In this document: positions 7,764-62,500 of the stretch, piece after piece | Position numbering within the stretch: the first letter of the stretch is position 1 | How the letters are laid out: each line of letters opens with the position of its first letter | DNA from: Nannobrachium achirus | Lineage: Eukaryota > Chordata > Actinopteri > Myctophiformes > Myctophidae | NCBI GenBank assembly: GCA_963921795.1 | Contig: OY997642.1 | Span: 58,956,927 to 59,020,926, forward strand | Length of the DNA: 64,000 nucleotides | Direction: 5' to 3' | The notes under the pieces: generated by a model | What the model was told of the DNA's origin: nothing | Database searches by the model: none | Seen by the model: only the letters and a program-made list of their open reading frames with translations | Program-made: the position numbers and the translations under genes

Positions 7764-9283
7764 TAGGGGTGTGAAAGAATATTCTATATTCGAATATTCG
7801 TTCGAATGATAACAATAAAAGAATATTCGAAAGTAAAAAATTGAGCTTCGAATTAATTTATATTTAATTAAAACAAATCTACCGCACTTCTCGCGAGATT
7901 CTGGGCGCATGGAACGTTAAAAGGTGGCTGGTCTCGCATGGCAGAAGTCTCCATTCGCTGCTGCAAAAGTGGGCTGATCTACAAGTCCACAATACGTCGC
8001 TGATCCAATACGTTGTGAGCTTGTAAATTAAGGGTGCCTATTTAGCGACACCGTCATACAGCGAAGAATAAACCTCCAGCTGCTAAACTTTCCCTTCACT
8101 CACACTGTCCCTCACACACAGATGCAGCTTCACAGGGTACACTGTGGCACACACTGTGTGTGAGGGACAGTGCCTGAGCCTATGCATGCTAACGTTGTCA
8201 TTGATTAACGAGTCAAGCTGAAACGGGCGACTCATTTGCTAGTGACGGGAAGGAACAAGACTTTTCCACCGAAAACACAATATAAAAAAGCATGGATTTC
8301 TTCTCTCACCGAGTCAGTCTCCTCGCACGCAGCCACGGTAACGGTAAAACTTCCTCCGTCACTCACACTGCTCTTGTAGACTACCCAATTTGGTTCAAAC
8401 CAAAACATAATCCATTGGTGTGATTATAATTGCTCGTTTCATGTCGTGGCTGTTCCAAATCAATCACAGCTGCTGTGACGCTTCGCAACGAACGACGATC
8501 CGATTCTGCTGTTGCTTTTACCAACGCACTGAACGCAGGCACGCATAGCCGCGGGAACTAATCTGAGGCAGGAGGGGCTGTCGATCGTGTCACGCGCGCA
8601 AAAAATCGCGGTTATTTGCGGATTTTAATTGTGTTTTATAACCTTTTTTGCAGGTTTTATTCGGGTTTCCGCGGTTTATTTTTTAGCTAAATGTAACACA
8701 ATTGGGAACTGCACACTAAACTTTCCCTTTGCCTCTCCAAACGGGCTGTGGACAGTGCGGAGACATATAAAAAAATGCACACACAGTGGCCATATGCCAC
8801 TGATCTGATTGCAGCCAGCAGGATATTATTAGATGCTATATAGATGGATTTCTTGGTACCAACACTGAGACAGCAAGTGCCTGTTTCATAGGCCTATATA
8901 CCAATCATTTATTTTTTCCCAATAGAAACGGCCAAACCTATTTTGGGGAGCGCATTGAGTAGGCCTACAGCTGATAATATACAAGCTCACTGTCAGTTGT
9001 CAGTAACGAGGCTTAGCTGATATGTAACAGCATTTTTATTAACCCTTTTAACAAATCAATTAAATAGCCTAAACATGAGCGAGGAGCAGGAGGATATATA
9101 GATGGCACAGAATTAGTCTGGTAGGATTCACCTTGAAACATGGGCTGCATATTGTTGTAGTGTTTTTGGTTGGTTTCTGTTCTGGATGTTTTGAAGGTTT
9201 GCACAGGGCTCTACTTCCTGTATTGTCCCAGCTCAGATTCTGAGCCTGGGACAACTTCCTGCCCAGGAATATCATAGTTTTGG

Positions 9284-42765: not shown

Positions 42766-44767
42766 TAGGGTTAGGGTCTCAGTGTAATCTCAGTGTATAA
42801 TACTTACAAATAATACATATTTTTTAGATTTTAAACCAGTTTAATTAAAACATTTTCCAAAAATTGAAAAAGAAGATATTTAAAAAAAATGTCATGCCTA
42901 ATATGTGTAATCATTCAGTACAGGTTGGATACTTTAGGCAGCTATGTTCGGCATAGCCATAGCAATGCTGTCATATTCCGATAGAGAGAGAGAGAAAGAG
43001 AGAGGTGCTAGCAATGAAGCAGCCATTATATTGGGCCGGATTGAATCAGTTCTGGCCCGCGGGCCTTATGTTTGACACGAAAGCGGGTGTGACTGCTTAA
43101 CCTGCATGACTCCTGATTCAAAGCAGCAGTGCACCTGTGGTCTTCACCAAACACAGAAGACAAACCACAAGCCACAAGTAAGTCAGAATTCAATTTTCCT
43201 CCAGACATGGCTTGTGATTTTATTATATCCTCTCTCAGGAAATTATGCATTGTCTGACAATTATTAATCTCTCAAGAACATACTCTGATGCGACTGACAC
43301 CCACAGTTTGTGTGTGTAGTTGCACTAATTCTTCAATTCTAGACTCTAGAATCAGGGTTCCCAAACTTTTTTGAGCGTGACCCCCAAAATAAACATATTT
43401 TAACTGGGGACCCCCCACCCTGGCAAGCACTTGGAAACCTAGATATAACATTTAGTTTGACTCTGTTCCACAGATATTTTGACATATTTTGAAAATAGCC
43501 GATCTACAAGCTCACAAGCAGCGTTGTGAGCTTGTAGATCGGCTATTTTCACAATATTCGCCTATTTCTTACTGTTTTATTTATACTATATTTGAGTTTG
43601 CCCAGTTTAGTATTAAAAAGGTATTGAATGTCCTTACATTTTCACTTAAATTTGCATTCTGCATCCCTGACGCATATATTTTATAAAGGACACATTAAAC
43701 TAAACTGCTTGAAAAACATTGAATATTTTTTTCCTATTGATTACTCTCCATGGAGACTTGAGTTCCAATATTCCATATTTAGTCCACATGGGCCATATGA
43801 GATGTTGGTATCCAAAAGTTGGCAAAGGTTACCATGCATTTTTGAAAAGCTCTATATCTGGAGATTATATTTTGGTATGATAACCCTTTCTGAGACACAA
43901 GCTATCAGCCACTAGACTTGGTGTCCCATTAACTTTACCATACAGGAAAAAAAAGCTAAACATTAATCCGCTTTAAGTAGCATATGAGGGGTCAAACTAG
44001 GGGTTTTTCCGTGATTCTGAATCAATTTAAAATATGATTATTTTGGGGGAATTATATGCAGGGTTTAAATTGCCTACAGTATATGAGTGCACTCTCTCAC
44101 ACTTCTGCCAGTGTGCCATTGATCACCCACACCTGTGCCAGTGTTGGCACCCGTGCCAAAGGTTGTCTAGCCCTGCTGTAGACCCTCTCAGTAAAACAAA
44201 CCTTATTTGATTTTGCACTGTATTTGATGTATTTTCTCAGCTATGGTCTCTTCACCCAAAATTAACAGATCACAACATACCATGTTGTGAGTTTATAGAC
44301 TTAACGGTGTAATTGAGGGGTGTCATGGATGAAAAAAATATTCACAGGGGTGACCTGTGTCAAAAGTTGTTAAATCATTGGTATAGAAAAATCACACCCG
44401 TGTGAACTGAGCGGTGGTCGTGGAGGCTGCGCAACAGCAAAACAAATATATATAGGCCTATACCTGTATAAATATATATATATACCTGCGTGCGTGCGTG
44501 TGTGTGGGCTGGCCAGCCCGCACGCACGCATGCACGCACGCGATGGATACCAGTGGCGGCCTGAGTGACATGCATTTTATTATTAATATTTTGTTTAATA
44601 TTGTTTTACTATTTTTTATTATATATATATATACAGGTCACTATACAGTGAGCAAGCTAAAAACTGACCCATGACTTAGGTTTAGTGATGAGTCATCACG
44701 TTTCTCCGTTTTGTGAGGGCCACAAAATCTAACCAATTTTCTCTCTCCCCTCTCTGTTAATGTGTAG
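42720..44767. other. Non-coding stretch with transposon relics, upstream of the recombinase-like gene
   Basis: (TA)n at 42720-42762. A hAT-type end, CCCGCGGGCCTTATGTTTGA with CAC, at about 43058-43080. GGGTTCCCAAACTTTTTTGAG at 43356. A MITE fragment (TTGATTACTCTCCATGGAGA) at 43737. A purine/pyrimidine TGCGTGCG tract at 44485-44545. The last 40 bp before 44768 form a pyrimidine-rich 3' splice site (TTTTCTCTCTCCCCTCTCTG with TTAATGTGTAG), implying an unseen upstream exon. Confidence 0.6.
43491..43550. repeat. Fold-back element, perfect 27-bp arms
   Basis: GAAAATAGCCGATCTACAAG with CTCACAA faces its exact complement TTGTGAGCTTGTAGATCGGC with TATTTTC across 6 nt. This is the cleanest copy of the dispersed fold-back family. 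Confidence 0.9.
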
Positions 44768-45468
44768 GATGCCTACCTGTCCTGTGTGTTTCAATGACTA
44801 CACTCTGGCATCCCTTCCAGGCCATCTAAAAGACCAGCACCTGTATCGAAATATTCAAGAGCGAAAAATAATTCTAAATCTGTGCAATAAACGCACATAC
44901 ATCCGGAAGTGCCCATGTCCAGTCCCGGGATGTGGAGTTGTAGGGACGTTCCTTGAGAGGCATATTGCCCTAACCCATAAGGAACTGGAAATCGACAACC
45001 TCACACAAACAGCCCGGAGGCTGGAAACAGAGCGACTCCTCCGGGAGTTAAGGGCCACCAACCCGGTGGTCCCATTAAGGACCACCTGGGACAACGACGT
45101 ATGTACAATATATTTTGTATTATGTTGGACTTCCCTCTCCTTATTCATCTCCCCTTCATCCTCAACCTCATTCTCCCTCAGATTTCCTAGTCTATCTAGT
45201 GCGCCTATTGTGCACACTGATCATGTTTTTTCTCTCCTTCACACAGAATGATGATCGTGCCGTGGACTTGCAAAGGCCCGAACGGCCGGCCAGGCAGAGC
45301 GGGCTGGTATGTCGAAAGACTAAATGTCAGGGACTACAGCAACGTTTTAAGGTCATGTCTAATAAGTTCAGGTTGCTGAAGCAGCTCTATGTCAAGGTCA
45401 AGAGTGAGAACCGGGCCTTGCAAATGGCTAGAGGTCTCCTGCAGTCCTCCCTACCAGTGTTACCAGAG
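44768..45468 (+). CDS. Recombinase-like gene, exons a-b: two C2H2 zinc fingers and basic linker
   Basis: Exon a: the ATG at 44769 opens MPTCPVCFNDY. The first finger is C-x2-C-x11-H-x4-H (Cys 4 and 7, His 19 and 24). A second lies in CPVPGCGVVGTFLERHIALTH-type sequence (C-x4-C, H-x4-H). The exon ends WDND at a GTATGT donor, phase 0. Exon b (acceptor CCTTCACACAG, donor GTGAGA) encodes NDDRAVDLQRPERP followed by a basic helix (KTKCQGLQQRFKVMSNKFRL) and ends VLPE. The fingers are likely to bind DNA, for example element ends or a host site; this is inference. Whether the ATG in exon a is the true start depends on the missing upstream exon. Confidence 0.8.
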
Positions 45469-47493
45469 GTGAGAAATGGCAGATATATAGGCACTTTGAG
45501 CTTTGTAGGTCTGTGTCTGTCAACATGCGTTGCATAAATCACCTAACAATGAACATTATGAGTGGTTATCACTGCTGTATCATTGCGACCGTAGGTCGCA
45601 TTTACTACCAAAACCTCCACCGGCTGTCTGTGAGTCAGTCAGTGAGTCAGTGAGTCCGTCACACTTTTGCCCTGCTCATATCTCCACAACCGTTGCCCCC
45701 ATCCATGCCACATTTCGAACACACACTCCTTGACTGCCAAACTACAACCTCCAAGGACCCCCGGAGCCCCAGGGACCCCCAGGTCCCTGGCCCAGGGACC
45801 CCAGGTATAAAAAATGACCAAATGTGCAAAAATGACCAAATGACCACCCCAACGGGGCTGCTCGCGGGGAATTCCCGGGGACCACCGACTCCTGGTGCTC
45901 CAGAACGGATGCAAAAGTGGTGGCGCCCCCAGTGGAGGACCCCCTGCCACTGCAGCGCACATAAAATGCCGTAACTCGGGCTAGGAGCGTCCGGGAGAGC
46001 CGGGGCCGGTACCTATTCGTCCGCCAAGGCAACGCGGAGACCCCACCCCTCATTTCTCACATGGCCCTATTCTAGCGCCACCTTCAGGCCGATTTTTAAA
46101 ACACATTTTTGGACACTGCTCCTACAGTTTTTGCCCTAAAATCACGAATATCACTACACAGCATGTCTACACTCATGTCATCAACATGGATCAGGAAGAT
46201 TTTGGAAAAAGACATTTTTGCCCTATTTGTGGAGATAAGCCACCTACGGTCGCTTATCTCCCGATTAGGGAGTCTTACTGGTTAACTTACCTTTTCATTT
46301 CAGATGAGTCCAGGTAACTGAGTGGTTATCACTGCTGTATCACTAACTTACCTTTTCATTTCAGAGGAGTCCAGGTAACTGAGTGGTTATCACTGCTGCA
46401 TCCAGGGACATGCTGGGCCCCTGATTCAGCCCGGGAAAAAGAGTTGGAGAGGCCCTCATTGCACGCTATGGAGAGATATCTCTCTATAGCGCTACTGCTA
46501 CTCAAAGATTTGCCATTTAAAATCATGAAAAGCCAGTGGGGCAATTACTGTACATGAGTTATATTTCGTCGTTGTCGGGTGCAAACCTTGTATGTCCAAA
46601 ACCGTTTTGTATTTATCATTTTAAAAATGATTTAAATTTGTGAAAACAGACGATCTACAAGCACACAACCCCTCGCAGTGCGAGGCGTTGTGTGCTTGTA
46701 GATCTGCTGTTTTCACTACTTTTGTGCAACAGCCTTGTATGATGAAGCAGGTCTATGCTTTGCGAAGAAAGATTTATACATTTGAAACTTGGAGATACAA
46801 GGTTTCTGCCCGACAGTGACGATTTACTTTGTTGGCCGCCCAGCCCCCAAAAAGGAACGAGGGCCGACATTTTATTTTTCATTTTTTCCTAATGGCCGGC
46901 CTGGACTGGCCGGGAATGAACCGGCCGTTCAGGAGTTGTCCCGGTTTTCCCAATGGCCAGCACGTCCCTGGCTGCATCACTAACTTATCTTTTCATTTCA
47001 GATGAGTCCAGGTTTAACTGTAACTGAGTGGTTATCACTGCTGCATCACTAACTTACCTTTCCACCTCAGTGTCCAGACCCCGAACTCAGTCCTGACGAT
47101 GATCAGGACACTGGACAGGAGATGGAGTCTGCTGCCCCTGCCATAACAAGGCCCAAGGGTAACGGGACCCCGGTAAAGGTGTTGTTTTCTAATTCAATTC
47201 ACTTTCACACTCAACATCATGCTCACAATATGTAGAGATCTTTTTTTAATCTTGTTTGTGTATATTTTATGTAATTGTTTATGTATGCTCTTGTCGGCTG
47301 TTGTATTTTGTCTCGCACATCTAGATGGTGTCAGTTACACCAGATGGATCGCACTCTGAGACTCGACTCAGAGTGCATTCATTGCATGCTCAGGAATTCT
47401 CCCCCTCAAAGTGCCAGCCGTGGGCGGATGGCAAGCGCAGGGGAAATAAGATGCGCGAGATCTCTGTGCCCTCGTCGTTTCGTGAGTGTGAAT

Positions 47494-47550
<57 letters not shown>

Positions 47551-50500
47551 CCAGGGCCATTCATTTGCCATACATAACATTCTCTACTGTATGAACTATT
47601 CAGGCACAAAAATGTTGTATTCAACAATGTGTGTTACTTGTGCCATTACAGAAACGATATTGGAGACATACCAGGCGGCCCGTGAGGGAGCAGAGCCGAA
47701 TCGTACTGCACACAACAATGCAGTATCGAAAGTCAGCCGCATAAAGGCGTTTATTCTATATATGTCGCACAGTGTGCCTAAGACAGCAGACTGGCGATTC
47801 CTGTCTGACCTACAGAGAATCAAAAGGTGAGTCTGATGGACTGACTGATGGCCGGTCGGGGGGTAAAGACGTATTTGCACTGTAACAGTCCGGTGTTGGA
47901 TTTCCTTTTTGTTTTATTATTATCTGTACATTTAATATATCAACATCAATATGATTATCTCCACATTATCTCCACATTTTGCAGCTTTTACAAGAGCCTC
48001 AACTCGTCGCTGATGCCGCCGTCAGTGCTGCACTATTTACAGGGTGTGAAGCAGTTCTTGAAACATGCCAAGGAGAGCCGTGTCCCGGCCTGCAAGCTCA
48101 ATAAGTCTGATTGGTATAACATAGAGACCACTTTCACAATGCTTATTAAAACAATCCACAAGGCCGTAGTGCGGCACCAGCAGGCTACAAAGAGGCAGAA
48201 GCACGAGATGCTCCCCACCAAAGAAGAGCTCCGGACCTTCCAGACCCAGGCAAGGGCCAGAATTCCGCTAGTCCTCGGTATGTTTACCCTCATTTCATTA
48301 GACTATACCATTCCCAAACATACCCGGAGCTATTCATCACCAATCACAATATAGCAACATTGTTACGGGTTTTAGACTATAAAAATGTAATACTTATATT
48401 TATTGTTTGCACTTCTCTCTCCCCCCTGGTCCTGTTACCCAGAGCAACTCAAAGAGAAGCCATCGAACAAGAGCCTTAGGTTCCAGTTTTATGGACTCCT
48501 GTCTGGCCTCTGGTCCACCCTGTATGGACACAGGCCCTGTGTCCTGAAAAACATGTTGGACCAGGAGGTGGAGTTGGCCAGACAGACCAGAGAAAGGACC
48601 AAGGCAAAGGACTTCCTCATCCTGGTGAGTTGCTGAGTGGTTGTCACTGCTGCTGCATCACTAACTTACTTTTTCATTTCAGATGAGTCCAGGTGAGTGG
48701 TTATCACTGCTGTATCATTAACTTACCTTTTCATTGCAGATGAGTCCAGGTTTAACTGAGTGGTTATCACTGCTGTATCATTAACTTACCTTTTCATTTC
48801 AGATTAGTCCAGGTAACAGAGTGGTTATCACTGCTGTATCATTAACTTACCTTTTCATTTCAGATGAGTCCAGGTAACTGAGTGGTTATCACTGCTGCAT
48901 CACTAACTTAACTTTTCATTTCAGATGAGTCCAGGTAACAGAGTGGTTATCACTGCTGTATCATTAACTTACCTTTTCATTGCAGATGAGTCCAGGTTTA
49001 ACTGAGTGGTTATCACTGCTGTATCATTAATTAAGTGTGCCTGCCATGCAATGCAATGGCAAAACACTTATTGTAATCCGCCATACTTAAGTAAGTCAGT
49101 CAGTAAGTCATGTTCTGGCAAATTTCGGCGCGTAATAACTGCCGCACGATTTACACCACCCCCGCAATATATACATCAAAACGTGCGGCTCGGCCGGGAA
49201 TGGGGTGCTATTACTTTTCTTTCCGATCCGCGTTACCATGGCGACGTAATTCGCAAAAAACGACGCCCAAAAACCCCATTGACTTAGAATGGGGGAAATT
49301 TCGGCACGTAATAACTGACGCAAGATTTACGCCACCCCCGCAATATATACATCAAAATGTGCGGCTCGGCCGGGAATGGTGTGCTATTACTTTTCTTTCC
49401 GATCCGCGATACGATTGCGATGTAATTCGCAAAAAACGACGCCCAAAAACCCCATTGACTTAGAATGGGGGACTCCGAAAAAAACCCAGAAACTTTGGCG
49501 CCACATAACTCTGCCATACTTTTGCCTAGCAACGTGATTTAAACTTTAAAATGCACACACAACTTTGGTCTTTTTCCGGCCAATAGGGATGAGCTGTAAT
49601 TGATTAAGCCCCGCCCCCTCTGTAACAGGAAGTGTCCTTCGCCAAACAGTAAGTGCCTCTATAACTCATGAACCGTTTGTCGTACAGACCCGCGGCTGGT
49701 GTCATAATTCTTTTTTTTTCTCAAATTTTTTTTCTCAATTTTTTTTTTCTCAAAAATTTTTTTTTCTCAAATTTTTTTTTCTCAAATTTTTTTTTCTCAA
49801 AAATTTTTTTTTCTCAATTTTTTTTTTCTCAAAATTTTTTTTCTCAAAATTTTTTTTTTCTCAAAAAATTTTTTTTTCTCAAATTTTTTTTTCTCAATTT
49901 TTTTTTTCTCAAAAAATTTTTTTTTCTCAATTTTTTTTTTTCTCAATTTTTTTTTTCTCAAAAAACTTTTTTTTTCTCACAAAACAATTTTTTTCTCACA
50001 AAACAATTTTTTCTCAAAAAAACAGTCGTTAAAGTGCGACCCGTGATAACGGCCAAAAATGCGCCAAAACGCCACTAATTAGTCGAAATGGCTGTGGGTG
50101 GTGTCATATGAAGAACCATAATGTTAAAGCTTATGCAAAAAATGCTAATGTTAAAAAATGTAACGCTAATGCTAACACCAACCGCTACACAAGGTTGCAC
50201 AGACTTAGCGAGCTGCAGGCACACTTAAAATTTCTTGGAAATTTTCTTTTCTAGTTTACCTTTTCATTTCAGATTAGTCCAGGTAACAGAGTGGTTATCA
50301 CTGCTGTATCATTAACTTACCTTTTCATTGCAGATGAGTCCAGGTTTAACTGAGTGGTTATCACTGCTGTATCATTAACTTACCTTTTCATTTCAGATTA
50401 GTCCAGGTAACAGAGTGGTTATCACTGCTGTATCATTAACTTACCTTTTCATTGCAGATGAGTCCAGGTTTAACTGAGTGGTTATCACTGCTGTATCATT

Positions 50501-53500
50501 AACTTACCTTTTCATTTCAGATGAGTCCAGGTAACTGAGTGGTTATCACTGCTGCATCACTAACTTAACTTTTCATTTCAGATGAGTCCAGGTAACAGAG
50601 TGGTTATCACTGCTGTATCATTAACTTACCTTTTCATTGCAGATGAGTCCAGGTTTAACTGAGTGGTTATCACTGCTGTATCATTAATTTACCTTTTCAT
50701 TTCAGATTAGTCCAGGTAACAGAGTGGTTATCACTGCTGTATCATTAACTTACCTTTTCATTTCAGATGAGTCCAGGTAACTGAGTGGTTATCACTGCTG
50801 CATCACTAACTTACCTTTTCATTTCAGATGAGTCCAGGTTTAACTGTAACTGAGTGGTTATCACTGCTGCATCACTAACTTACCTTTTCATTTCAGATGA
50901 GTCCAGGTTTAACTGTAACTGAGTGGTTATCACTCCTGCATCACTAACTTACCTTTTCATTTCAGATGAGTCCAGGTTTAACTGTAACTGAGTGGTTATC
51001 ACTGCTGCATCACTAACTTACCTCTCCATATCAGATTTCCCAGGTGTCTGCCATGCGTAAGAGGGCGCCTCTGCAGGACTGTGTCCCACGTGTGGGAAAG
51101 TTGGTTTGTTTCTGGATTTCCACAGCTTCTCTTATCCACTGTCCCCATGAGCTATCTTAAAGGAGTAGTTCACCCCCAAAATGACCTTTTTTTCCTATTG
51201 ATTACTCATGCCATGGAGACTTGAGTTCAATAATATTTTTTTGTGTCTTGTTGCATTCCTAAGACAATAATTTGATTACAATTAATGTCCTTCCATTGAT
51301 TCCGGATGGGGACCCGAATGCATTTGGGTCCTCATCCGGAATCAATGGGGCTGAATTTACTAGAATCAAAATGTTTTCTTAGGAATGCGACAAATACCAA
51401 AAAGTATTATTGAACTCAAGTCTCCATGGCGTGCGTAATAAAAATAAAATGCATTTTGGGGCTGAACTACTCTAACCCTCTCCCAGTCCATCAGGTGGAT
51501 TTCTTGGTTCTCCTTTATTGCTCGCTGTCTTAATATGCGGGTTGGTGTTTAAAAAGTTTATTTCTCACATTCTTTTTGTGGTCTTTTCTTTTATGTATCA
51601 ATCTGCCTGTCACACTTTTTCAGCCTCTAAACATCCCCCAGCCCTTATAGCAGGTGTGGGAAACTTTGATGATGGAAAGGACCGCTATATTTCCTCACTC
51701 ACTCCAGAGGGTCACTATATGTCCACACTCACTCCAGGACGTCACTAATATTTCCACGCTCACTCCAGAGGTTCACTATATGTCCACGCTCATTCCAGAG
51801 GGTCACTATATGTCCACGCTCATTCCAGAGGGTCACTATATGTCCACACTCACTCCAGGACGTCACTAATATTTCCACGCTCACTCCAGAGGTTCACTAT
51901 ATGTCCACGCTCATTCCAGAGGGTCACTATATGTCCACGCTCATTCCAGAGGGTCACTATATGTCCACGCTCACTCCAGAGGGTCACTTTATGTCCACGC
52001 TCACTCCAGAGGGTCACTATATGTCCACGCTCATTCCAGAGGGTCACTATATGTCCACGCTCACTCCAGAGCGTCACTATGTCCACGCTCACTCCATAGT
52101 GTCACTATATGTCCACGCTCACTCCAGAGGGTCACTTTATGTCCACGCTCACTCCAGAGGGTCACTATATCGCTCACTCCAGTCGTTCCTACATCCCATT
52201 AGTCTGAATCTGGTGAATGTAAACCTGGTGAAAATACTATGCTTAAACTTAAACCTAACCTGAGTAAAACTATACCTAAACCTGACCCAAACCCTAACCT
52301 CAGTAAAACTATGCTTAACCCTACATTAGAACTAATGAGATGTAGGACTTATGGGCAGTCCCCCACTCCAGAGGGTCACTTTATGTCCATGCTCACTGTT
52401 GTTGGGCAGAAATCCATCTCTAGTCTTTTTCATAAATGAATGTCCTACTTCAGGAAAAAAATTGCTGATCTACAAACACACAATTTTGAGTTTATAGATC
52501 TGCTATGTTTAATTTGATTTCAAATGTATTTAGTTATACTTATGTCAACTTTATGAACTTAAATACAAATACATTGGACATAAAACAGACCATTTTAACA
52601 CTAGTCATTAAACAAATGTTTCAAATTAAAGCGGTCATGTTTGCGTTTTTGTAATTGTAACAGCTGAAATCAATACTATATCAGTATTCTGATATTAATA
52701 TGCAGGCCACCTTAGGTGAAGGTGGGGGCTGTATGCCGGCGTAAAGTGTCTGTTTCCTTTCCCATGTGTAAATCTCTCTATCCTATGATAGGTCAAGGAG
52801 CACAAGACGGCCCATATGTTTGCCGAGGCATGTGTTCATGCCACAGAGGAGGAGTTCTCTTGGGTGGAGGAGTGGCTCAAGATCAAGGTTATTAAAGTTA
52901 TATCCGTGCTACTAAAGTGGTTGACACTTCTGCACAAGCACACAGAAACCAAACACATACATCAACTGACATATTAGCACAACTACAGTAGGTTAATTAG
53001 TACAGTGGATTTGTATACCGTGTTACTCGCAAATTGTCCAATGCAGACATTAATACAAATACTGTACATTTCCTTGTCTCAAGGAGCGGTGCCCAGGGAG
53101 AAAGAGTCCTCATGTATTCTTCACCGGGGGGGAGGGGGTCTGCGAGAAACTTCTCGACCAATTCCGGAAGGAGTGGTCCACCTGTGGCCTGAAGGGGAGG
53201 CCCTTCTTTATGTTGATACGGACTGCCATATCCTTCTATGTAGGTAGCATTGGCCAACATTACATACATTCATTTGTTTGAATATATTGAATATCTGTGC
53301 TCCAATTTGATTTCTCAATAATTATTTGCTTTTTATGTGCTAAATGAAACAGGCCCGCCAAAACATGTCACCGGAGGCGCGCAAGAAGGTCACCGATCTC
53401 ATGGCCCACAACATGGAAGTCTCTGACCGGTTCTATGCCCTGAACCCCACCCCTCAGGAGACATTGGAGATCAGACAATTGATCCAGCGCTCCCTGGATG

Positions 53501-55678
53501 GGCCCGAGCCCGTCACCATGGCCAACGAAATGGGGAGGCTTCTAGAGAAGGCCAGACAGGAGGCCATTGAGGAGGGGGAGATCCCCGAAAATGAATGTGG
53601 GGAGAAAGAGAGGGAAGGCGAGGATAAAGACAAGGAGAAGCGCCTCCGTCTGCTCACCCGAACCATCAGCCAGCTGAACAATGAGCAGACGGGCCACGTC
53701 TACTCTCTCCTGCAGGCGCACGAGGGTATAAACCCTGAGGTCAATGAAATGACTATTGACTTCAAAAACCTCAAGCCCTCCACACTGCAGGAGTTGGAAG
53801 ACTACGTCTCCACCCTCCCCAAAGTTCCTGGTGAGTAAACCATTCAGCTTTACTCCTGTTACTTATTCCTGTTGTTTGGATCTTACATTGGTGTGATCAT
53901 GTGTTATTGAAACATGCATTTCTATTTTTCTATAAAAAAGCCAAGGCCAAGTTCAAGTCGAGGAGGACTCGGCAAGAAAGTGACCATGAGACCACGGAGG
54001 AGGAACAGGAGGTATCTTGGATTATTTAGAACTAGCCCTTACCCGTTCAAAGATATGAGCTCCAAAATGATGTGCAGTGTGTGGGTTATGGGATGTGCAC
54101 TGTGCACACAGTGGCCCTCATTTATCAATGGAGTGTAAAAAATGGTCTATTTTTTTCACCAAATTTTGCGTAGGGCAACGTGTGCACGGCATTTATCAAT
54201 GCTTCCTAAACAGACACACCTGGCGTACATTTGATCCCAGCGTTGATAAATGCGCAGGCTGAAATTTAAATAACACGCCCTTAATTATTCTCGAAACGCC
54301 CCGATTTTACGACCAGAACAACCCGAATACGACCTAACAACCAAAGAAAAGCCATGTCCGCGTCCCACACAGACCACGCACACATGCACGCACGCACGCA
54401 CACACCTACACACGCAACTAGGCTACTTTGAACAGCAGCATTTTGGTTTACACAGCAGTCTTTGACAGTGGAAACGTGGGATTAACCAACGGTACAATCT
54501 TTGACAAGGAGGCTATAGCACCGCAGCCGACATGAATGACACAAGTCACTGGTCACTGCCATGAATACTTTTGGATATAAATTTAAACCATTGCCTACCC
54601 GTGCCGTGTGTGCGCAGACAGAGCGCGTTCATTTGGTTACAAGCAATCATATTCCCCATGGCCATGATCTCAAGGCTCGCCACGTCGGGTTTCATCATTA
54701 ACTCCAGCATAGTGTACAGTATCTACTGTATAAATTGAGAGACCCCACGGTTACGTTTTGGATATTAATTTAACCCAATTTCGGCGACGAGCGCAATTCA
54801 TGTTTGAGTGCTTGAACTAGCGATCATGTACCGTTCCTGCGCTGGCTGGTCTTCTCCCAGGTGGGCCGCGGACCCCCAAATAAATCATCCACAGCGTGCG
54901 TGCGCGGGGCTGGGCACAGCCAGGTTTGGCGCTTCGGGTTTTATCCATATTTAAAAAGACTCGCGTCACTGTATAAATTGGAGGCTCACGCCTCACGGTA
55001 GATCACAGCGGTGCCGCGCTGGTCCCCGAAAATGTCTCGCATGCGTTCGTAGGCTATAATGTGCTTGTTCTGAGCCAGGTCTGCAATCTTAAAATATAGA
55101 CTGTTAAAGCACTTAACAGTAGATTGCTTCCATGTTGCTAGATTTTGATTGCTTGTCATTGTAACTTGGAAATAAAATCGGCGTGCATGTCCATGATGTA
55201 GCTGGCTATAATATACTTTTATAAAATGTTATATTTTCACAGGATTATTTATTATTGTGTTGGATATACATTTTCGAGTGGATACATGTGTCCATTGCCT
55301 GTCAAATAGTTACACAATGCTGCTCCGCACCTCTACAATGGAACAAAGTGGTGTAGGATGATTCCTACACCACCTCAGGACTTGACGTGAGATTTGATCC
55401 TACCCTAGACCAAAGTCAAAGTCAAGTTGAAATGATAAATGTCGAGACTTCCCTAAATTTCGGTGTACACCCAAATTTTGATCTGCACCACGTTGATAAA
55501 TGAGGGCCAGTATATGAGGGATGGAAAGTAACTTTAACTGGTGCTTGCATGATGTAGGAGCATCAATGTAAGAAACCCGTTTCGTTTAATGGCTACAGAG
55601 ATACTGTCCCCCCCAACCCCCCCCCCCCCCCCCAGCCCGCCCACCCGCCTGCACACACACCCGCCTGCCTACACACAC

Positions 55679-55775
<97 letters not shown>

Positions 55776-56980
55776 GCTGGTTAAACATTTTGCCTCATGC
55801 TAGATGCAGAATAGATGTGCCTCATGCTAGATGCAGAATAGATAATAGATACACCATAAAAATAATATATAATATACAGCATATGATTTGTGAAAGTGAC
55901 AAACGGGCTTCACAGTTATGTCAGGTGTGTTCATATGCTAATGGTGATGCGATTTCAGATCAATTGCTCCAGCCACTGAGGAGAAACGCTGTTTCAGACA
56001 GACAGACACTCACTCACTCACTCACTCAGACATTCGCAAAATTATAGTATAGATATATTTAACTAGAAAGATTAAATCCTGGGAAATGCGAGTGTGGTTG
56101 CCTATTGTCTGGATAACTGGGAGCCCTGTACTGGATGAGTTTATTAATTAAATTGAATATTGATTTTATGTTCTACATTTCCCCCTCCACCGAATGTCAC
56201 CCCCCCCCATATAACCAAATTGTCATAAGCTTTACCAATTTTCCTCAAACTAGCACCACTCCCTTATTGAACTCAATGGACTTATTACTCTATAATGGTT
56301 ACGTCCGATAATGCTGTTTCCTGATTGGCTAAAAGTTTATCTAGAAGGCACTAGTACTATAATGTGTTGCAACATTAACTACCACATCATTTAACTACCT
56401 TCTCAGTCTCTTACATAGTTATATATTGGTACCTATGGACTTTCACACCTGTGCCAATAAGAAGCTGAGGAGTAGTTATGTTGTCTTGTGTACTTAGGGA
56501 AGTGTGTATTTCTTTTCTTCTAAAATGCTCTCCAGGTGCCCTACCAGGAATCAGGGGGTTCCTCATCCTCACAGGAGGAAAACGAGGAGGTGGAGGAGGT
56601 GGAGGGGATAAAGCCTGCATCCTCACAGGAGGACAACATTGTGGTGGAGGAGAGAGAGCCCACATCCTCACAGCAGGAAAACGTGGAGGTGGAGGAGAGG
56701 GCACCCCAAAAGCAGCCCAAGAGGGCACCCCAAAAGCAGCCCAAGAGGGCACCCCAAAAGCAGCCCAAAAGGGAACCCCAAAAGCAGCCCAAGATGAACT
56801 GGAGCCGAACAAGTCCAATCAAGACCCGGAGATCCCTCCCACGGAGCCAGGTGTTGCGGCCCAACACCCAGAATCCCCTACCCTATAAAAGAGTCTGTTC
56901 TATGGTCTTGACCAAGCTCAATTTTGGCAAGTACAGATATATTGAAAGCATAATGACTGATGCTCCACTTTATCTCTAGG

Positions 56981-57051
<71 letters not shown>

Positions 57052-57779
57052 ACATGTTTATATACAGTATATACGCTGACATGTTTATATACAGTATATA
57101 TGTTATCTGTGAGAACATTCCCTTACCAGATGCATTCATAATTTTTTGGAAATATGTCACGCTTTGCGCTATTCTCGACAGCTCCGAATGTGAGCGTTTC
57201 GATATTGCAACCCAACATTTGTTCACCGTTAACAGTTAGTGATGGTACTAATATATTGTGTTTGGTCCACAGATGTTGTTCACCGTTAACAGTTAGTGAT
57301 GGTACTAATATATTGTGTTTGGTCCGCAGATGATGTTCACCGTTAACAGTTAGTGATGGTACTAATATATTGTGTTTGGTCCACAGATGTTGTTCACCGT
57401 TAACAGTTAGTGATGGTACTAATATATTGTGTTTGGTCCACAGATGTTGTTCACCGTTAACAGTTAGTGATGGTACTAATATATTGTGTTTGGTCCACAG
57501 ATGTTGTTCACCGTTAACAGTTAGTGATGTTACTAATATATTGTGTTTGGTCCACAGATGTTGTTCACCGTTAACAGTTAGTGATGGTACTAATATATTG
57601 TGTTTGGTCCACAGATGTTGTTCACCGTTAACAGTTAGTGATGGTACTAATATATTGTGTTTGGTCCACAGATGAAATTCCATAACAAGTGGAGCCAAGA
57701 GTGGTCTCTTCACCAGCAGCCCCCTCCACCGCCCCTTGACCGTCACCCCAGCACAGGATGTATTCCTCTATTCAGTTGA
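44768..57779 (+). CDS. Zinc-finger tyrosine-recombinase-like gene, eleven or twelve exons, apparently intact
   Basis: Predicted exons: a 44768-45098, b 45247-45468, c 47071-47158, d 47652-47826, e 47985-48277, f 48443-48624, g 52792-52887, h 53084-53239, i 53353-53830, j 53941-54011, k 56536-56850 or to the stop at 56979, l 57672-57779. All have AG/GT borders and compatible phases. No in-frame stop is seen, giving about 840 codons. Order of parts: two C2H2 fingers, basic linker, helical core-binding-like region, catalytic region of a DNA-breaking-rejoining enzyme (R, K, R, H-x8-Y), acidic and basic tail. Such an enzyme would cut and rejoin DNA through a 3'-phosphotyrosine. Spliced exons with an intact frame suggest either a Crypton-like spliced transposon or a domesticated host gene. 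I cannot name an orthologue. The upstream first exon is not identified. Confidence 0.8.
45585..46262. mobile_element. Dispersed-repeat insertion with GCGACC palindromic ends
   Basis: The left end is the palindrome TGCGACCGTAGGTCGCA. The right end, GGAGATAAGCCACCTACGGT with CGCTTATCTCC, contains the same motif with 10-bp outer arms. The interior belongs to the gcgcc-type family (TTCTAGCGCCACCTTCAGGC). It splits a splice cassette: GTATCATT on the left and TAACTTACCTTTTCATTTCAG on the right. Its CCTTGACTGCCAAACTACAA block is also found, reversed, at about 1745-1800. Confidence 0.7.
46265..46402 (+). repeat. Splice-cassette repeats in intron b-c
   Basis: Two to three units of the repeat described at 48634-51040: GGTTATCACTGCTG, AACTTACCTTTTCATTTCAG, then (G)ATGAGTCCAG or GAGGAGTCCAG and GTAACTGAG. 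The array resumes at 46979 after a hAT-type MITE and ends at the true acceptor of exon c (47070). Confidence 0.85.
46403..46970. mobile_element. hAT-type MITE inserted in a splice cassette, 8-bp TSD
   Basis: Ends CAGGGACATGCTGG and CCAGCACGTCCCTG, flanked by GCTGCATC at 46395-46402 and 46971-46978. The target is the GCTGCATC part of a splice cassette. The interior carries a fold-back motif (46640-46716). The sister copy at 58232-58758 has a different target duplication, so both moved independently. Confidence 0.93.
47071..48277 (+). CDS. Recombinase-like gene, exons c-e: acidic linker and core-binding-like domain
   Basis: Exon c (CPDPELSPDDDQDTGQEMES) is acidic. Of two possible donors, GGTAACG at 47159 is preferred because it joins in phase 1 to exon d, giving GETILETYQAAREG. 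The downstream GTAAAG donor at 47173 would put exon d in a frame with a stop. Exon d continues AFILYMSHSVPKTADWRFLS. Exon e begins SFYKSLNSSLMPPSVLHYLQ, runs through a long helical segment (KQFLKHAKE, AVVRHQQATKRQKHE) and ends IPLVL. The helix-rich region with a ...YLQGVKQFLKH segment sits where integrases carry the SAM-like core-binding domain that clamps DNA. Introns d-e (158 bp) and e-f (165 bp) are short. Confidence 0.72.
47492..47548 (+). repeat. (CA)n microsatellite in intron c-d
   Basis: About 28 CA units. Neighbouring ORFs on both strands derive from it. Confidence 0.97.
48443..53830 (+). CDS. Recombinase-like gene, exons f-i: catalytic domain
   Basis: Exon f (EQLKEKPSNKSLRF to KDFLIL) contains FYGLLSGLWSTLYGHRPCVL. 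The Arg after YGH fits the first catalytic Arg. Exon g starts VKEHKTAHMFAEACVH; the Lys of HKT fits the beta-hairpin catalytic Lys. Exon h ends PFFMLIRTAISFY; its Arg fits the second Arg, but the usual His of H-x-x-R is Met. Exon i reads ARQNMSPEARKKVTDLMAHN, then MEVSDRFYAL. His to Tyr spacing is H-x8-Y, exactly that of the GH...Y box in phage-type integrases. So R, K, R, H and Y are all present, and only the first His of the box is replaced. After the Tyr comes a charged helix (EIPENECGEKEREGEDKDKE). Intron f-g is 4.2 kb and filled with splice-cassette repeats; the others are 110-200 bp. Confidence 0.8.
48634..49035 (+). repeat. Splice-cassette minisatellite, first block (intron f-g)
   Basis: Seven units of about 62-64 bp. 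Each contains GAGTGGTTATCACTGCTG, a branch-point-like CACTAAC or CATTAAC, a pyrimidine-rich TTACCTTTTCATTTCAG ending in AG, a 10-nt segment ATGAGTCCAG (or ATTAGTCCAG), and GTAACTG, GTAACAG or GTTTAACTG. It has the form of acceptor, micro-exon and donor, tandemly copied. Confidence 0.93.
49120..49471 (+). repeat. Direct duplication, 176-bp unit
   Basis: Two adjacent copies begin AAATTTCGGC(G/A)CGTAATA and end TTGACTTAGAATGGGGG. They differ at a few positions. They are part of a roughly 1.2-kb insertion that splits the splice-cassette array. Confidence 0.9.
49708..50025 (+). repeat. (TTTTTTTTCTCAA)n minisatellite
   Basis: About 20 units of eight or more T followed by CTCA and one to five A, strongly strand-asymmetric. 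The Phe/Leu-rich ORF over it is an artefact. Confidence 0.95.
50255..51040 (+). repeat. Splice-cassette minisatellite, second block (intron f-g)
   Basis: Twelve further units of 62-66 bp, same structure as 48634-49035. The last acceptor, CTCTCCATATCAG at about 51037, precedes ATTTCCCAG followed by GTGTCTGCC, a 9-nt micro-exon-like variant. An open frame continues (ISQVSAMRKRAPLQDC) but lacks a good donor, so I leave it out of the gene model. Confidence 0.93.
51157..51475. mobile_element. Full-length TTAA fold-back MITE
   Basis: Starts at TTAA with AGGAGTAGTTCACCCCCAAA and ends in TTTTGGGGCTGAACTACT. The centre is a strong inverted pair, CCATTGATTCCGGATGGGGA with the complement-like GGTCCTCATCCGGAATCAAT. 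About 315 bp, the best copy of the family in the window. Confidence 0.85.
51690..52175 (+). repeat. 30-bp minisatellite
   Basis: About 16 copies of GTCCACGCTCACTCCAGAGG with GTCACTATAT; one more near 52362-52395. Between them, 52225-52325 has degenerate CCTAACC/AACCCTAA phrases. ORFs in it are repeat products. Confidence 0.95.
52464..52506. repeat. Fold-back motif, short diverged copy
   Basis: GCTGATCTACAAACACACAA against TTTATAGATCTGCTATG. It lies in intron f-g, about 280 bp upstream of exon g. Confidence 0.65.
53941..57779 (+). CDS. Recombinase-like gene, exons j-l: repetitive acidic/basic tail
   Basis: Exon j (KAKFKSRRTRQESDHETTEE) is basic then acidic. Exon k starts VPYQESGGSSSSQEENEEVE and holds three acidic repeats headed by SSQEEN / SSQEDN / SSQQEN, each ending in EVEE or VEE. 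Four copies of an 8-residue basic repeat, APQKQPKR, follow (24-bp DNA unit at about 56700-56795). It may end at a TAG at 56977-56979, or splice at CAG/GTGTTG (56850) in phase 0 to exon l. Exon l (MKFHNKWSQEWSLHQQPP) stops at 57777-57779. The acceptor of exon l is the last copy of a 61-bp acceptor-bearing minisatellite. The tail looks like a disordered nuclear region. Confidence 0.65.
54113..55508. mobile_element. 1.4-kb non-autonomous DNA element in intron j-k
   Basis: Ends GGCCCTCATTTATCAA and TTGATAAATGAGGGCC are perfect inverted repeats. GTTGATAAATG-type motifs repeat inside both ends (54220-54255, 55490). The interior is CpG-containing and non-coding. The target duplication is unclear, so the superfamily is not assigned. 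Confidence 0.85.
55612..55772 (+). repeat. Poly-C and (CAGA)n microsatellite
   Basis: About 20 C residues, a CCCGCC/CACACAC transition and about 23 CAGA units. 55790-56110 after it is an old repeat ending in GCGAGTGTGGTTGCC, shared with 17935. Confidence 0.95.
56983..57047 (+). repeat. (CA)n microsatellite
   Basis: Directly after the alternative stop of exon k. It is followed by a duplicated GCTGACATGTTTATATACAG phrase at 57049 and 57074. Confidence 0.97.
57230..57671 (+). repeat. 61-bp minisatellite carrying a splice acceptor, about 7-8 copies
   Basis: The unit contains GTTCACCGTTAACAGTTAGT, then GATGGTACTAATATATTGTG, then TTTGGTCCACAGATG. TACTAAT is a near-ideal branch-point sequence about 20 nt upstream of the CACAG acceptor. 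The last copy supplies the acceptor of exon l (57671). The long minus-strand ORF across the array is an artefact. Confidence 0.93.
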
Positions 57780-59549: not shown

Positions 59550-62500
59550 TCAGAGCCCACCAGAGCCAAATAGAGCCCAGCAAACCTAAGTCCAGCCTAG
59601 TCCTGCCCAGTAGAGTATAGACCAGGGAAGGGGGGGTAGTTAGATGGCTCTACCAGGCCGTATCCGGCTTGAATAGGCTAAACCAGGGTGCAAAGGGCTG
59701 TACCAGACTCCACCAGGCTGCTCCATGCTCCAGCAAGCCCTGTAGCTCCTTGCACATGCAATTAACCACTGTGTACACGGGCAATAGTTTTACATGAGTT
59801 TGTGTACACGGCCAATAATTTTACATGAACATTTCTTGGCTTTAGTACTGTACTGCCTTGTAGAGCCCAACAGAGCCCAGCACAGCACAGCACAGCCCAC
59901 CAGAGCCCAATAGAGTCAAGAAAACCTAGGTCCAGCCCAGCCCTGCCCAGTAGGAGTATAGACCAGGGAAGGGGGGAAGTTAGATGGCTCAACCAGGCCA
60001 TTACAGGCCGTATCCGGCTTGAATAGGTCAGACCAGGGTGCACAGGACTGCACCAGACTCCAACAGGCTGCTCCAGCCTCGAGCCAGCCCTGTAGCTCCT
60101 TAAACATGCAATTAAAGACTGTGTACACGGGCAATAGTTTTACATGAGTTTGTGTACACGGCCAATAGTTTTACATGAACATGTCTTGGCTTTAGTACTG
60201 TACTGCCTCGTATAGCCCAACAGAGCCCAGCACAGCACAGCACAGCCCACCAGAGCCCAATACAACCCACCAGAACCTAATAGAGTCCAGCAAACCTAAG
60301 TCCAGCCCAGTCCTGCCCAGTAGAGTATAGACCAGGGAAGAGGGGTAGTTAGATGGCTCTACCAGGCCATTAAAGCCCATATCCGGCTTGAATAGGCCAG
60401 ACCAGGGTGCACAGGACTACACCAGGCTGCTCCATGCTCCAGCCAGCCCTGTAGCTCCTTGCACATGCGATTAACCACTGTGTACACGGGCAATAGTTTT
60501 TGTGTACACGGGCAATAGTTTTACATGAGTTTGTGTACACGGCCAATAATTTTACATGAACATTTCTTGGCTTTAGTACTGTACTGCCTTGTATAGCCCA
60601 ACAGAGCCCAGCACAGCACAGCACAGCCCACCAGAACCCAATAGAGTCAAGAAAACCTAGGTCCAGCCCAGTCCTGCCCAGTAGGAGTATAGACGAGGGA
60701 AGGGGGGAAGTTAGATGGCTCAACCAGGCCATTAGAGGCTGTATCCGGCTTGAATAGGCCAGACCAGGGTGCACAGGACTGCACCAGGCTGCTCCATGCT
60801 CCAGCCCAGCCCTGTAGCTCCTTGCACATGCGATTAACCACTGTGTACACGGGCAATAGTTTTACATGAACATTTCTTGGCTTTAGTACTGTACTGCCTT
60901 GTAGAGCCCAACAGAGCACAGCACAGCACAGCCCACCAGAGCCCAATAGAGTCAAGAAAACCTAGGTCCAGCCCAGTCCTGCCCAGTAGGAGTATAGACC
61001 AGGGAAGGGGGGAAGTTAGATGGCTCAACCAGGCCATTACAGGCCGTATCCGGCTTGAATAGGTCAGACCAGGGTGCACAGAACTGCACCAGACTCCAAC
61101 AGGCTGCTCCAGCCTCGAGCCAGCCCTGTAGCTCCTTAAACATGCAATTAAAGACTGTGTACACGGGCAATAGTTTTACATGAGTTTGTGTACACGGCCA
61201 ATAGTTTTACATGAACATGTCTTGGCTTTAGTACTGTACTGCCTCGTATAGCCCAACAGAGCCCAGCACAGCACAGCACAACCCACCAGAGCCCAATACA
61301 ACCCACCAGAACCTAATAGAGTCCAGCAAACCTAAGTCCAGCCCAGTCCTGCCCAGTAGAGTATAGACCAGAGAAGAGGGGTAGTTAGATGGCTCTACCA
61401 GGCCATTAAAGCCCATATCCGGCTTGAATAGGCCAGACCAGGGTGCACAGGACTACACCAGGCTGCTCCATGCTCCAGCCAGCCCTGTAGCTCCTTGCAC
61501 ATGCGATTAACCACTGTGTACACGGGCAATAGTTTTTGTGTACACGGGCAATAGTTTTACATGAGTTTGTGTACACGGCCAATAATTTTACATGAACATT
61601 TCTTGGCTTTAGTACTGTACTGCCGTGTATAGCCCAACAGAGCCCAGCACAGCACAGCACAGCCCACCAGAGCCCAATACAGCCAACCAGAACCCAATAG
61701 AGTCAAGAAAACCTAAGTCCAGCCCAGTCCTGCCCAGTAGGAGTATAGACCAGGGAAGGGGGGAAGTTATATGGCTCAACCAGGTCCTTACAGGCCGTAT
61801 CCGGCTTGAATAGGTCAGACCAGGGTGCAAAGGACTGCACCAGATTCCAACAGGATGCTCCAGCCTCGAGCCAGCCCTGTAGCTCCTTAAACATGCAATT
61901 AAAGACTGTGTTCACGGGCAATAGTTTTACATGAGTTTGTGTACACGGCCAATAGTTTTACATGAACATGTCTTGGCTTTAGTACTGTACTGCCTCGTAT
62001 AGCCCAACAGAGCCCAGCACAGCACAGCACAGCCCACCAGAACCCAATAGAGTCAAGAAAACCTAGGTCCAGCCCAGTCCTGCCCAGTAGGAGTATAGAC
62101 GAGGGAAGGGGGGAAGTTAGATGGCTCAACCAGGCCATTAGAGGCTGTATCCGGCTTGAATAGGCCAGACCAGGGTGCACAGGACTGCACCAGGCTGCTC
62201 CATGCTCCAGCCCAGCCCTGTAGCTCCTTGCACATGCGATTAACCACTGTGTACACGGGCAATAGTTTTACATGAGTTTGTGTACACGGGCAATAGTTTG
62301 TGTACACGGCCAATAATTTTACATGAACATTTCTTGGCTTTAGTACTGTACTGCCTTGTAGAGCCCAACAGAGCTCAGCACAGCACAGCACAGCCCACCA
62401 GAGCCCAATAGAGTCAAGAAAACCTAGGTCCAGCCCAGTCCTGCCCAGTAGGAGTATAGACCAGGGAAGGGGGGAAGTTAGATGGCTCAACCAGGCCATT

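Follow-up and report, generated by a model that had tools for sequence, protein, structure and literature searches.

Does the spliced gene on the plus strand of a 64,000-nucleotide stretch of the genome of the fish Nannobrachium achirus (C5:58956927-59020926, referred to below as the window) serve a mobile element, or has it become a host gene? The genome searched for an answer comprises 1.66 Gb in 564 contigs. As read from its DNA, the locus is predicted to be a spliced, intact gene for a protein that combines C2H2-like fingers, a tyrosine-recombinase-like (YR-like) region and an extraterminal (ET) domain of the BET type. It is moderately probable, in our judgement, that this gene serves, or served until recently, as the recombinase gene in a Crypton-like lineage of spliced DNA elements with a captured host ET domain. 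This domain, the most informative part of the gene, was absent from the preliminary description of the locus.

The joined frame consists of 11 coding exons (44769-56979) and comprises 2535 nt, which encode 844 aa with a single terminal stop, according to the bookkeeping of frame and splice sites; in the DNA sequence all ten exon junctions agree in phase and have GT-AG borders. Coding exon 1 (44769..45098) carries the start codon and two C2H2-like fingers, recognised by eye (Pfam gives just a sub-threshold zf-Di19), and paralogues have similar exons. Exon 2 (45247..45468) was placed by frame and splice sites and by comparison with a copy on contig C1. The small exon 3 (47071..47158, phase 0 to 1), which has an in-frame 18-nt insertion in the C1 copy, is required for the phase agreement of the joined frame. 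Exons 4 (47652..47826) and 5 (47985..48277) encode the first and second halves of a core-binding-like region, exon 6 (48443..48624) the box I arginine (YGHRPCVLKNM), exon 7 (52792..52887) the lysine of VKEHKTA, and exon 8 (53084..53239) an M-x-x-R (FFMLIRTAISFY) replacing H-x-x-R. Exon 9 (53353..53830) contains H-x8-Y (MAHNMEVSDRFYAL), a linker and the ET domain (approximate limits 53626..53829), and ends with a phase-1 donor. It is followed by exon 10 (53941..54011), with a basic and then an acidic stretch, and exon 11 (56536..56979), with an acidic and QKQPKRAP-repeat tail and the stop codon. In the whole protein, only PF17035 exceeded a Pfam cut-off; no bromodomain was found by Pfam, nor any reverse transcriptase in the joined protein, the flanks not having been scanned for the latter.

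The preliminary description had proposed spliced exons with matching phases, two fingers and a set of R, K, R and H-x8-Y with the histidine of H-x-x-R changed to methionine, and the joining of the exons in silico into one open frame bears out each of these points. Its end of the gene, at 57779, is unnecessary, the stop being at 56979; an extra exon (57672-57779) is possible from the sequence.

The YR-like residues are R400 (GHR), K435 (EHKT), M505-x-x-R508 and H533-x8-Y542, so that the motif set of R, K, H-x-x-R, H/W and Y is present in order except for the first histidine. Among the nine copies for which this exon is listed, its place is taken by Met in eight and by Leu in one, and the loss of the histidine is therefore a family trait. 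The spacing is 25 from R to H and 9 from H to Y; five known YRs have 22-23 and 9, and the pattern used for this comparison did not apply to two Ngaro proteins. The reference profile was built from lambda Int, XerD, FimB, FimE, Cre and the two Ngaro proteins. Against it was set an alignment of seven window-family sequences, four of them partial (A3; five near-duplicate or stop-bearing sequences of 12 were left out). The best unforced local alignment covered 106 columns (score 24.3, P 0.019) and placed EHKT on QSKT with K on K, MLIR on HELR, and MAH on LGH; this score was matched by one of 300 column shuffles. A forced global alignment of A3 with the profile gave no sensible register. Descent of the region after the fingers from a tyrosine recombinase thus appears likely, and the likeness to phage-type integrases suggested in the preliminary description can be maintained with moderate confidence, given the order of the motifs and one weak in-register profile match. 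Three scans of viral_contigs for relatives confirmed none.

At the end of the H-x8-Y exon, Pfam identifies a BET domain (PF17035, E=8e-8) with 33.3 bits for the core piece and 32.7 for the whole 844 aa, at a cut-off of 24.5. The PDB search returned the ET structures of BRD4, BRD2 and BRD3 (best 7.6e-8, BRD4). Across the genome, PF17035 gave 22 matches at E<=1, of which eight are strong and resemble BET genes and ten have one identical score. Among window-type copies, three exceeded the cut-off (one with a stop) and one, partial, on C19 fell below it. No match (E<=1) was obtained at the copies on C12, C8, C6, C2 (2.5M and 12.2M) and C348, and the capture therefore looks confined to the branch of the window gene. 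The ET domain of the window gene is identical to those of four host BET loci at 24-26 of 66 residues. A phase-1 donor follows the ET domain in the window exon, in a second ET-bearing element described below and in the four of the eight host BET loci that were read as DNA, with positions that agree to about five residues, the donors having been picked by position and consensus fit. Most likely, judging from these sequences, the ET domain was captured from a host BET gene.

The copies-per-genome count suggested in the preliminary description shows a multicopy gene dispersed on several contigs. Protein searches yielded at least 91 exon matches with the core (124 of 144 candidates scored) and at least 53 with the finger exons (101 of 101 scored), with copies on C1 (two), C2, C5, C6, C8, C12 (three), C19, C348 and others. 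Paralogues of about 50-78% identity have introns at the same places as the window gene, and GHRPCV, KEHKT, (M/L)-x-x-R and MAH-x8-Y are kept wherever the corresponding exons are covered. The closest copy, C1:65.88M, lies on another chromosome; it is 94-96% identical, introns included, in the main aligned BLAST blocks of window 44640-57333, and retains every splice site and a whole frame of 855 aa. The coding indels between the two are of 9, 18 and 6 nt; thus, three of three coding indels are multiples of three, versus seven of 17 in introns. The recurring intron places and catalytic residues of the paralogues and the intact C1 copy therefore make a pattern beyond chance, and since the introns travel with the copies, the copying was DNA-mediated. 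Some dispersed copies are broken or partial: in a third one, C1:75.79M, the break affects the linker and ET part, and the core of two others (C2:2.5M and C2:12.2M) is interrupted by a stop. Several other apparent internal stops in the core-search matches, on the evidence of the frames, probably represent intron bases at splice sites.

A second ET-bearing element, T14, is the large repeat holding the ten identical-score ET matches. In its copy at C14:55.10M (L070 and L072), a frame of 748 aa encodes C2H2-like fingers and, towards its end, YR-like motifs (FNRRRQGE, GK, TKLRK, MGHSIRVHDKFY). The ET exon (L070 6737-6954) lies 1.9 kb upstream of this YR frame, in a phase that fits the YR exon starting at 8834, from which we infer that the two may be spliced together. 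Ten full-length copies of the YR frame, 99-100% identical, are spread over eight contigs, and every one of the ten ET matches sits 2.4-4.9 kb upstream of such a copy. The first 1.4 kb of L070 is common to nine of the ten copies (98-100%), and the repeat therefore extends further left than the stretch read, which stops short of the element ends. Long open frames are found in many of the matches to the wider T14 superfamily, which number at least 80 (79 of 195 candidates scored). The T14 ET domain is identical to those of the same four host BET loci at 30-34 of 67 residues, and to that of the window gene at 18 of 65.

T14-type sequences also occur at two loci that have lost several catalytic residues: L078 (C10:36181500-36182365), with four neighbouring C10 copies of open frames of 649-1118 aa, and L079 (C22:34672226-34673090), with an open frame of 883 aa. 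Both are candidates for domesticated YR genes, on the evidence of their frames. L079 was left out as degenerate from the alignment of seven T14-type sequences (A4).

Intact frames had been taken in the preliminary description as a sign of selection, and this holds for the long term: core dN/dS (the ratio of nonsynonymous to synonymous change) between the window gene and nine distant copies was 0.11-0.20 in seven, as rough values with synonymous change near saturation, and saturated in two. The ratio was 0.31 against C1:75.79M and 0.14-0.29 in five of six pairs of the C12 and C8 copies, one not being computable. Purifying selection on the family over long times is supported by these comparisons of sequence. 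It does not hold for the closest intact pair, the window gene and C1:65.88M, with dS 0.032, dN 0.031 and dN/dS 0.98 over 844 codons; this result leaves a conserved single-copy host gene, which a low ratio might have indicated, unsupported.

The last value is also one of several results that weigh against the element reading proposed above. Two other young pairs gave dN/dS of 1.06 and 2.53. Neither element ends nor a target duplication nor an empty site were found for the window-type gene. Its homology with the C1 copy continues for about 35 bp within a distinct high-copy repeat, which starts near 59555, and that with three other copies extends upstream to 43111-43354; thus, the unit is not cleanly bounded. 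Searches of Pfam, PDB and PHROGs gave no YR match for the window family or for T14, neither A3 nor A4 was significant against the Ngaro pair alone, and A4 scored only 18.5 against the whole YR profile, a value reached in 21 of 300 shuffles. The kinship between the window family and T14 is weak (tblastn 5e-5; A3 against A4 profile E 0.003, probability 10%).

The comparison with C1:65.88M has a further aspect. The two copies differ at 78 of 2535 exon sites (3.1%) versus 58 of 3934 intron sites (1.5%), 13 of these 58 being in two patches of apparent misalignment. Exon 1 by itself accounts for 21 differences in 330 sites; outside it, nonsynonymous change exceeds intron change (p 0.003), whereas synonymous change does not (p 0.32). 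The possible explanations for the excess could be diversifying selection or a conversion of exon 1 from another paralogue. The difference in rate was rejected as a proof of positive selection, since in exon 1 synonymous change is elevated as well and the pair has a dN/dS of 0.98.

How, then, are these copies to be understood? The preliminary description had left the choice between a Crypton-like mobile element and a tamed host gene. A YR-like gene found with its introns in dispersed copies on several contigs, and encoding no reverse transcriptase in the joined protein, makes us lean towards a DNA element lineage; the missing element ends speak against it, and segmental duplication of a gene family is possible. 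In the latter case, the gene might belong to a host family of YR-element origin, spread by ordinary segmental duplication, whose members now serve as chromatin or transcription factors that bind DNA (fingers plus ET) and have lost, or do not use, recombinase activity. With its intact spliced frame, ET domain and acidic tail, the gene resembles a transcription regulator, and the untidy borders of duplicated blocks with common flanking repeats, the low dN/dS within the C12/C8 group and the Met in H-x-x-R agree with such a history. We consider it rather unlikely, as R, K, R, H and Y are retained in the copies read, there are many dispersed copies, some of them broken or partial, the closest intact pair has a ratio near 1, and several catalytic residues were lost by the two open T14-type relatives but not by the window gene.

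That same ratio near 1, together with the broken linker and ET region of C1:75.79M, would suit a transposon copy that is dead or dying and owes its intact frame to youth alone. This explanation is improbable: the two closest copies have accumulated 78 coding differences, yet no stop or frameshift, their coding indels all keep the frame while most intronic ones do not, and a higher divergence of exons than of introns is not predicted by neutral decay. Comparably improbable is a coincidental R/K/R/H/Y pattern, in which case the part that follows the fingers would have nothing to do with tyrosine recombinases. The silence of Pfam, PDB and PHROGs, and of the Ngaro pair taken alone, argues for coincidence, but the catalytic residues came into register unforced with a score that one shuffle in 300 attained, and their spacing of 25 and 9 compares with 22-23 and 9 in the five known YRs.

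If the gene is the recombinase gene of a Crypton-like lineage, its product might operate as follows. The fingers and the core-binding-like region would bind DNA, the fingers recognising element or target DNA, and the R-K-(M)-R-H-Y core would cut strands and make and reseal a phosphotyrosine link, with Met in the place of a His that is helpful, perhaps dispensable, in other YRs. By analogy with BET proteins, the ET domain may bind short peptides of chromatin proteins, and this docking could bring the recombinase, or the transcription of the element, to active chromatin. Such a role is suggested by BET biology, because gammaretroviral integrase binds the host ET domain, which guides integration. 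A wider and more tentative proposal, which we hold to be possible but not probable, is that YR elements of this fish captured a host BET ET domain probably twice, at the C-terminus in the window family and upstream of the fingers in T14, each docking its own recombinase on chromatin.

The surroundings of the gene are crowded with repeats. The large intron has minisatellites (about 51673-52190) and repeats around 48630-51040, and window 57200-57672 consists of 57-bp tandem repeats, each bearing a splice-acceptor-like TTTGGTCCACAG or a near copy (both by eye and BLAST). The repeat at 59555-61500 is the beginning of a separate high-copy one, 71-98% identical genome-wide, and 43780-44028 forms one arm of a foldback-like repeat of high copy number, whose genomic matches are in many cases inverted pairs. 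Just upstream of the gene, next to AT-rich inverted repeats, 447 bp (44032-44478) are reversed in the C1 copy (97% identity); an invertible promoter or recombinase-driven switch was considered here and rejected, since the flanks differ too and repeats crowd the region. Where the homology of the C1 copy ends on the left, there is an (ATT)n run. On that side the C12 copies are sharply bounded, but their border was rejected as an element end, since what ends there is a (TAA)n-flanked repeat of high copy number (L084, a short repeat beside (TAA)n, then tandem repeats of about 70 bp), also found inside an intron of the same copies.

The genome also contains Ngaro-type loci, located elsewhere than the window gene. 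A PF00589 profile search gave 51 matches, many with a 358-aa open frame; of the eight loci fetched (L001-L008), four were read, in two of which the YR frame is whole, and all four adjoin a 280-aa frame, RNase H-like by eye, in an arrangement as in Ngaro/DIRS elements. A distant C2H2 subfamily at six places (28% identity), of which three (L053-L055) were read, was set aside, having no match to the YR exons. The three, on C1, C5 and C15, measure 5.6-9.5 kb and have 99.3-99.9% identity; they contain a C2H2 frame together with others that resemble CARD and VWA by eye.

If the proposed reading is true, a DNA transposon has acquired for itself the host domain by which gammaretroviral integrases are targeted, and so carries the tether that gammaretroviruses must borrow. 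This would provide a natural, testable fusion of a recombinase with a chromatin tether, which could be compared with a second one in this genome, and the window family would add a spliced, multidomain group to the little-known YR elements of vertebrates. In the literature searched, Repbase and most subscription papers being outside it, titles and abstract openings mentioned no YR element with an ET domain.

Among known systems, Kojima and Jurka (2011; PMC3212892) present Cryptons (CryptonA/I/F/S) as having a eukaryotic YR protein without reverse transcriptase, as found in medaka and as a source of host genes. The window gene is similar in being YR-type, in lacking reverse transcriptase in its joined protein and in its occurrence in a fish, but differs in its eleven exons, C2H2-like fingers and ET domain, the comparison being one of descriptions; animal CryptonA/I are described there without a C-terminal domain. 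CryptonV elements are YR DNA transposons inserting in microsatellites (PMC8869645, in the part citing Kapitonov and Jurka 2012). Compared by description, the (TAA)n-flanked repeat end at one C12 border and the (ATT)n at the C1 left end are reminiscent of them, but the C12 repeat is also intronic in the same copies and hence no proof of an element end. With BRD2, BRD3 and BRD4 the gene shares a homologous ET domain and the same phase-1 exon end, whereas its protein has no Pfam bromodomain and joins the ET domain to a YR-like region. For gammaretroviruses, PMC9609653 reports that integrase binds the host BET ET domain, guiding integration, and that LANA of Kaposi's sarcoma-associated herpesvirus (KSHV) also contacts ET. 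An ET domain serves the choice of integration sites there and, by analogy, might do so through tethering by the window protein; in the retroviral case, however, the integrase carries the peptide and the host protein the ET domain, while in the window protein ET is joined to the recombinase-like region itself. Finally, the domesticated Crypton genes with DUF3504 (ZMYM2-4, QRICH1, KCTD1, KIAA1958) lack, according to PMC3212892, most of the catalytic tetrad. Like the window gene, they hold a YR-derived domain within multidomain vertebrate proteins, but the window family is multicopy and keeps R, K, R, H and Y.

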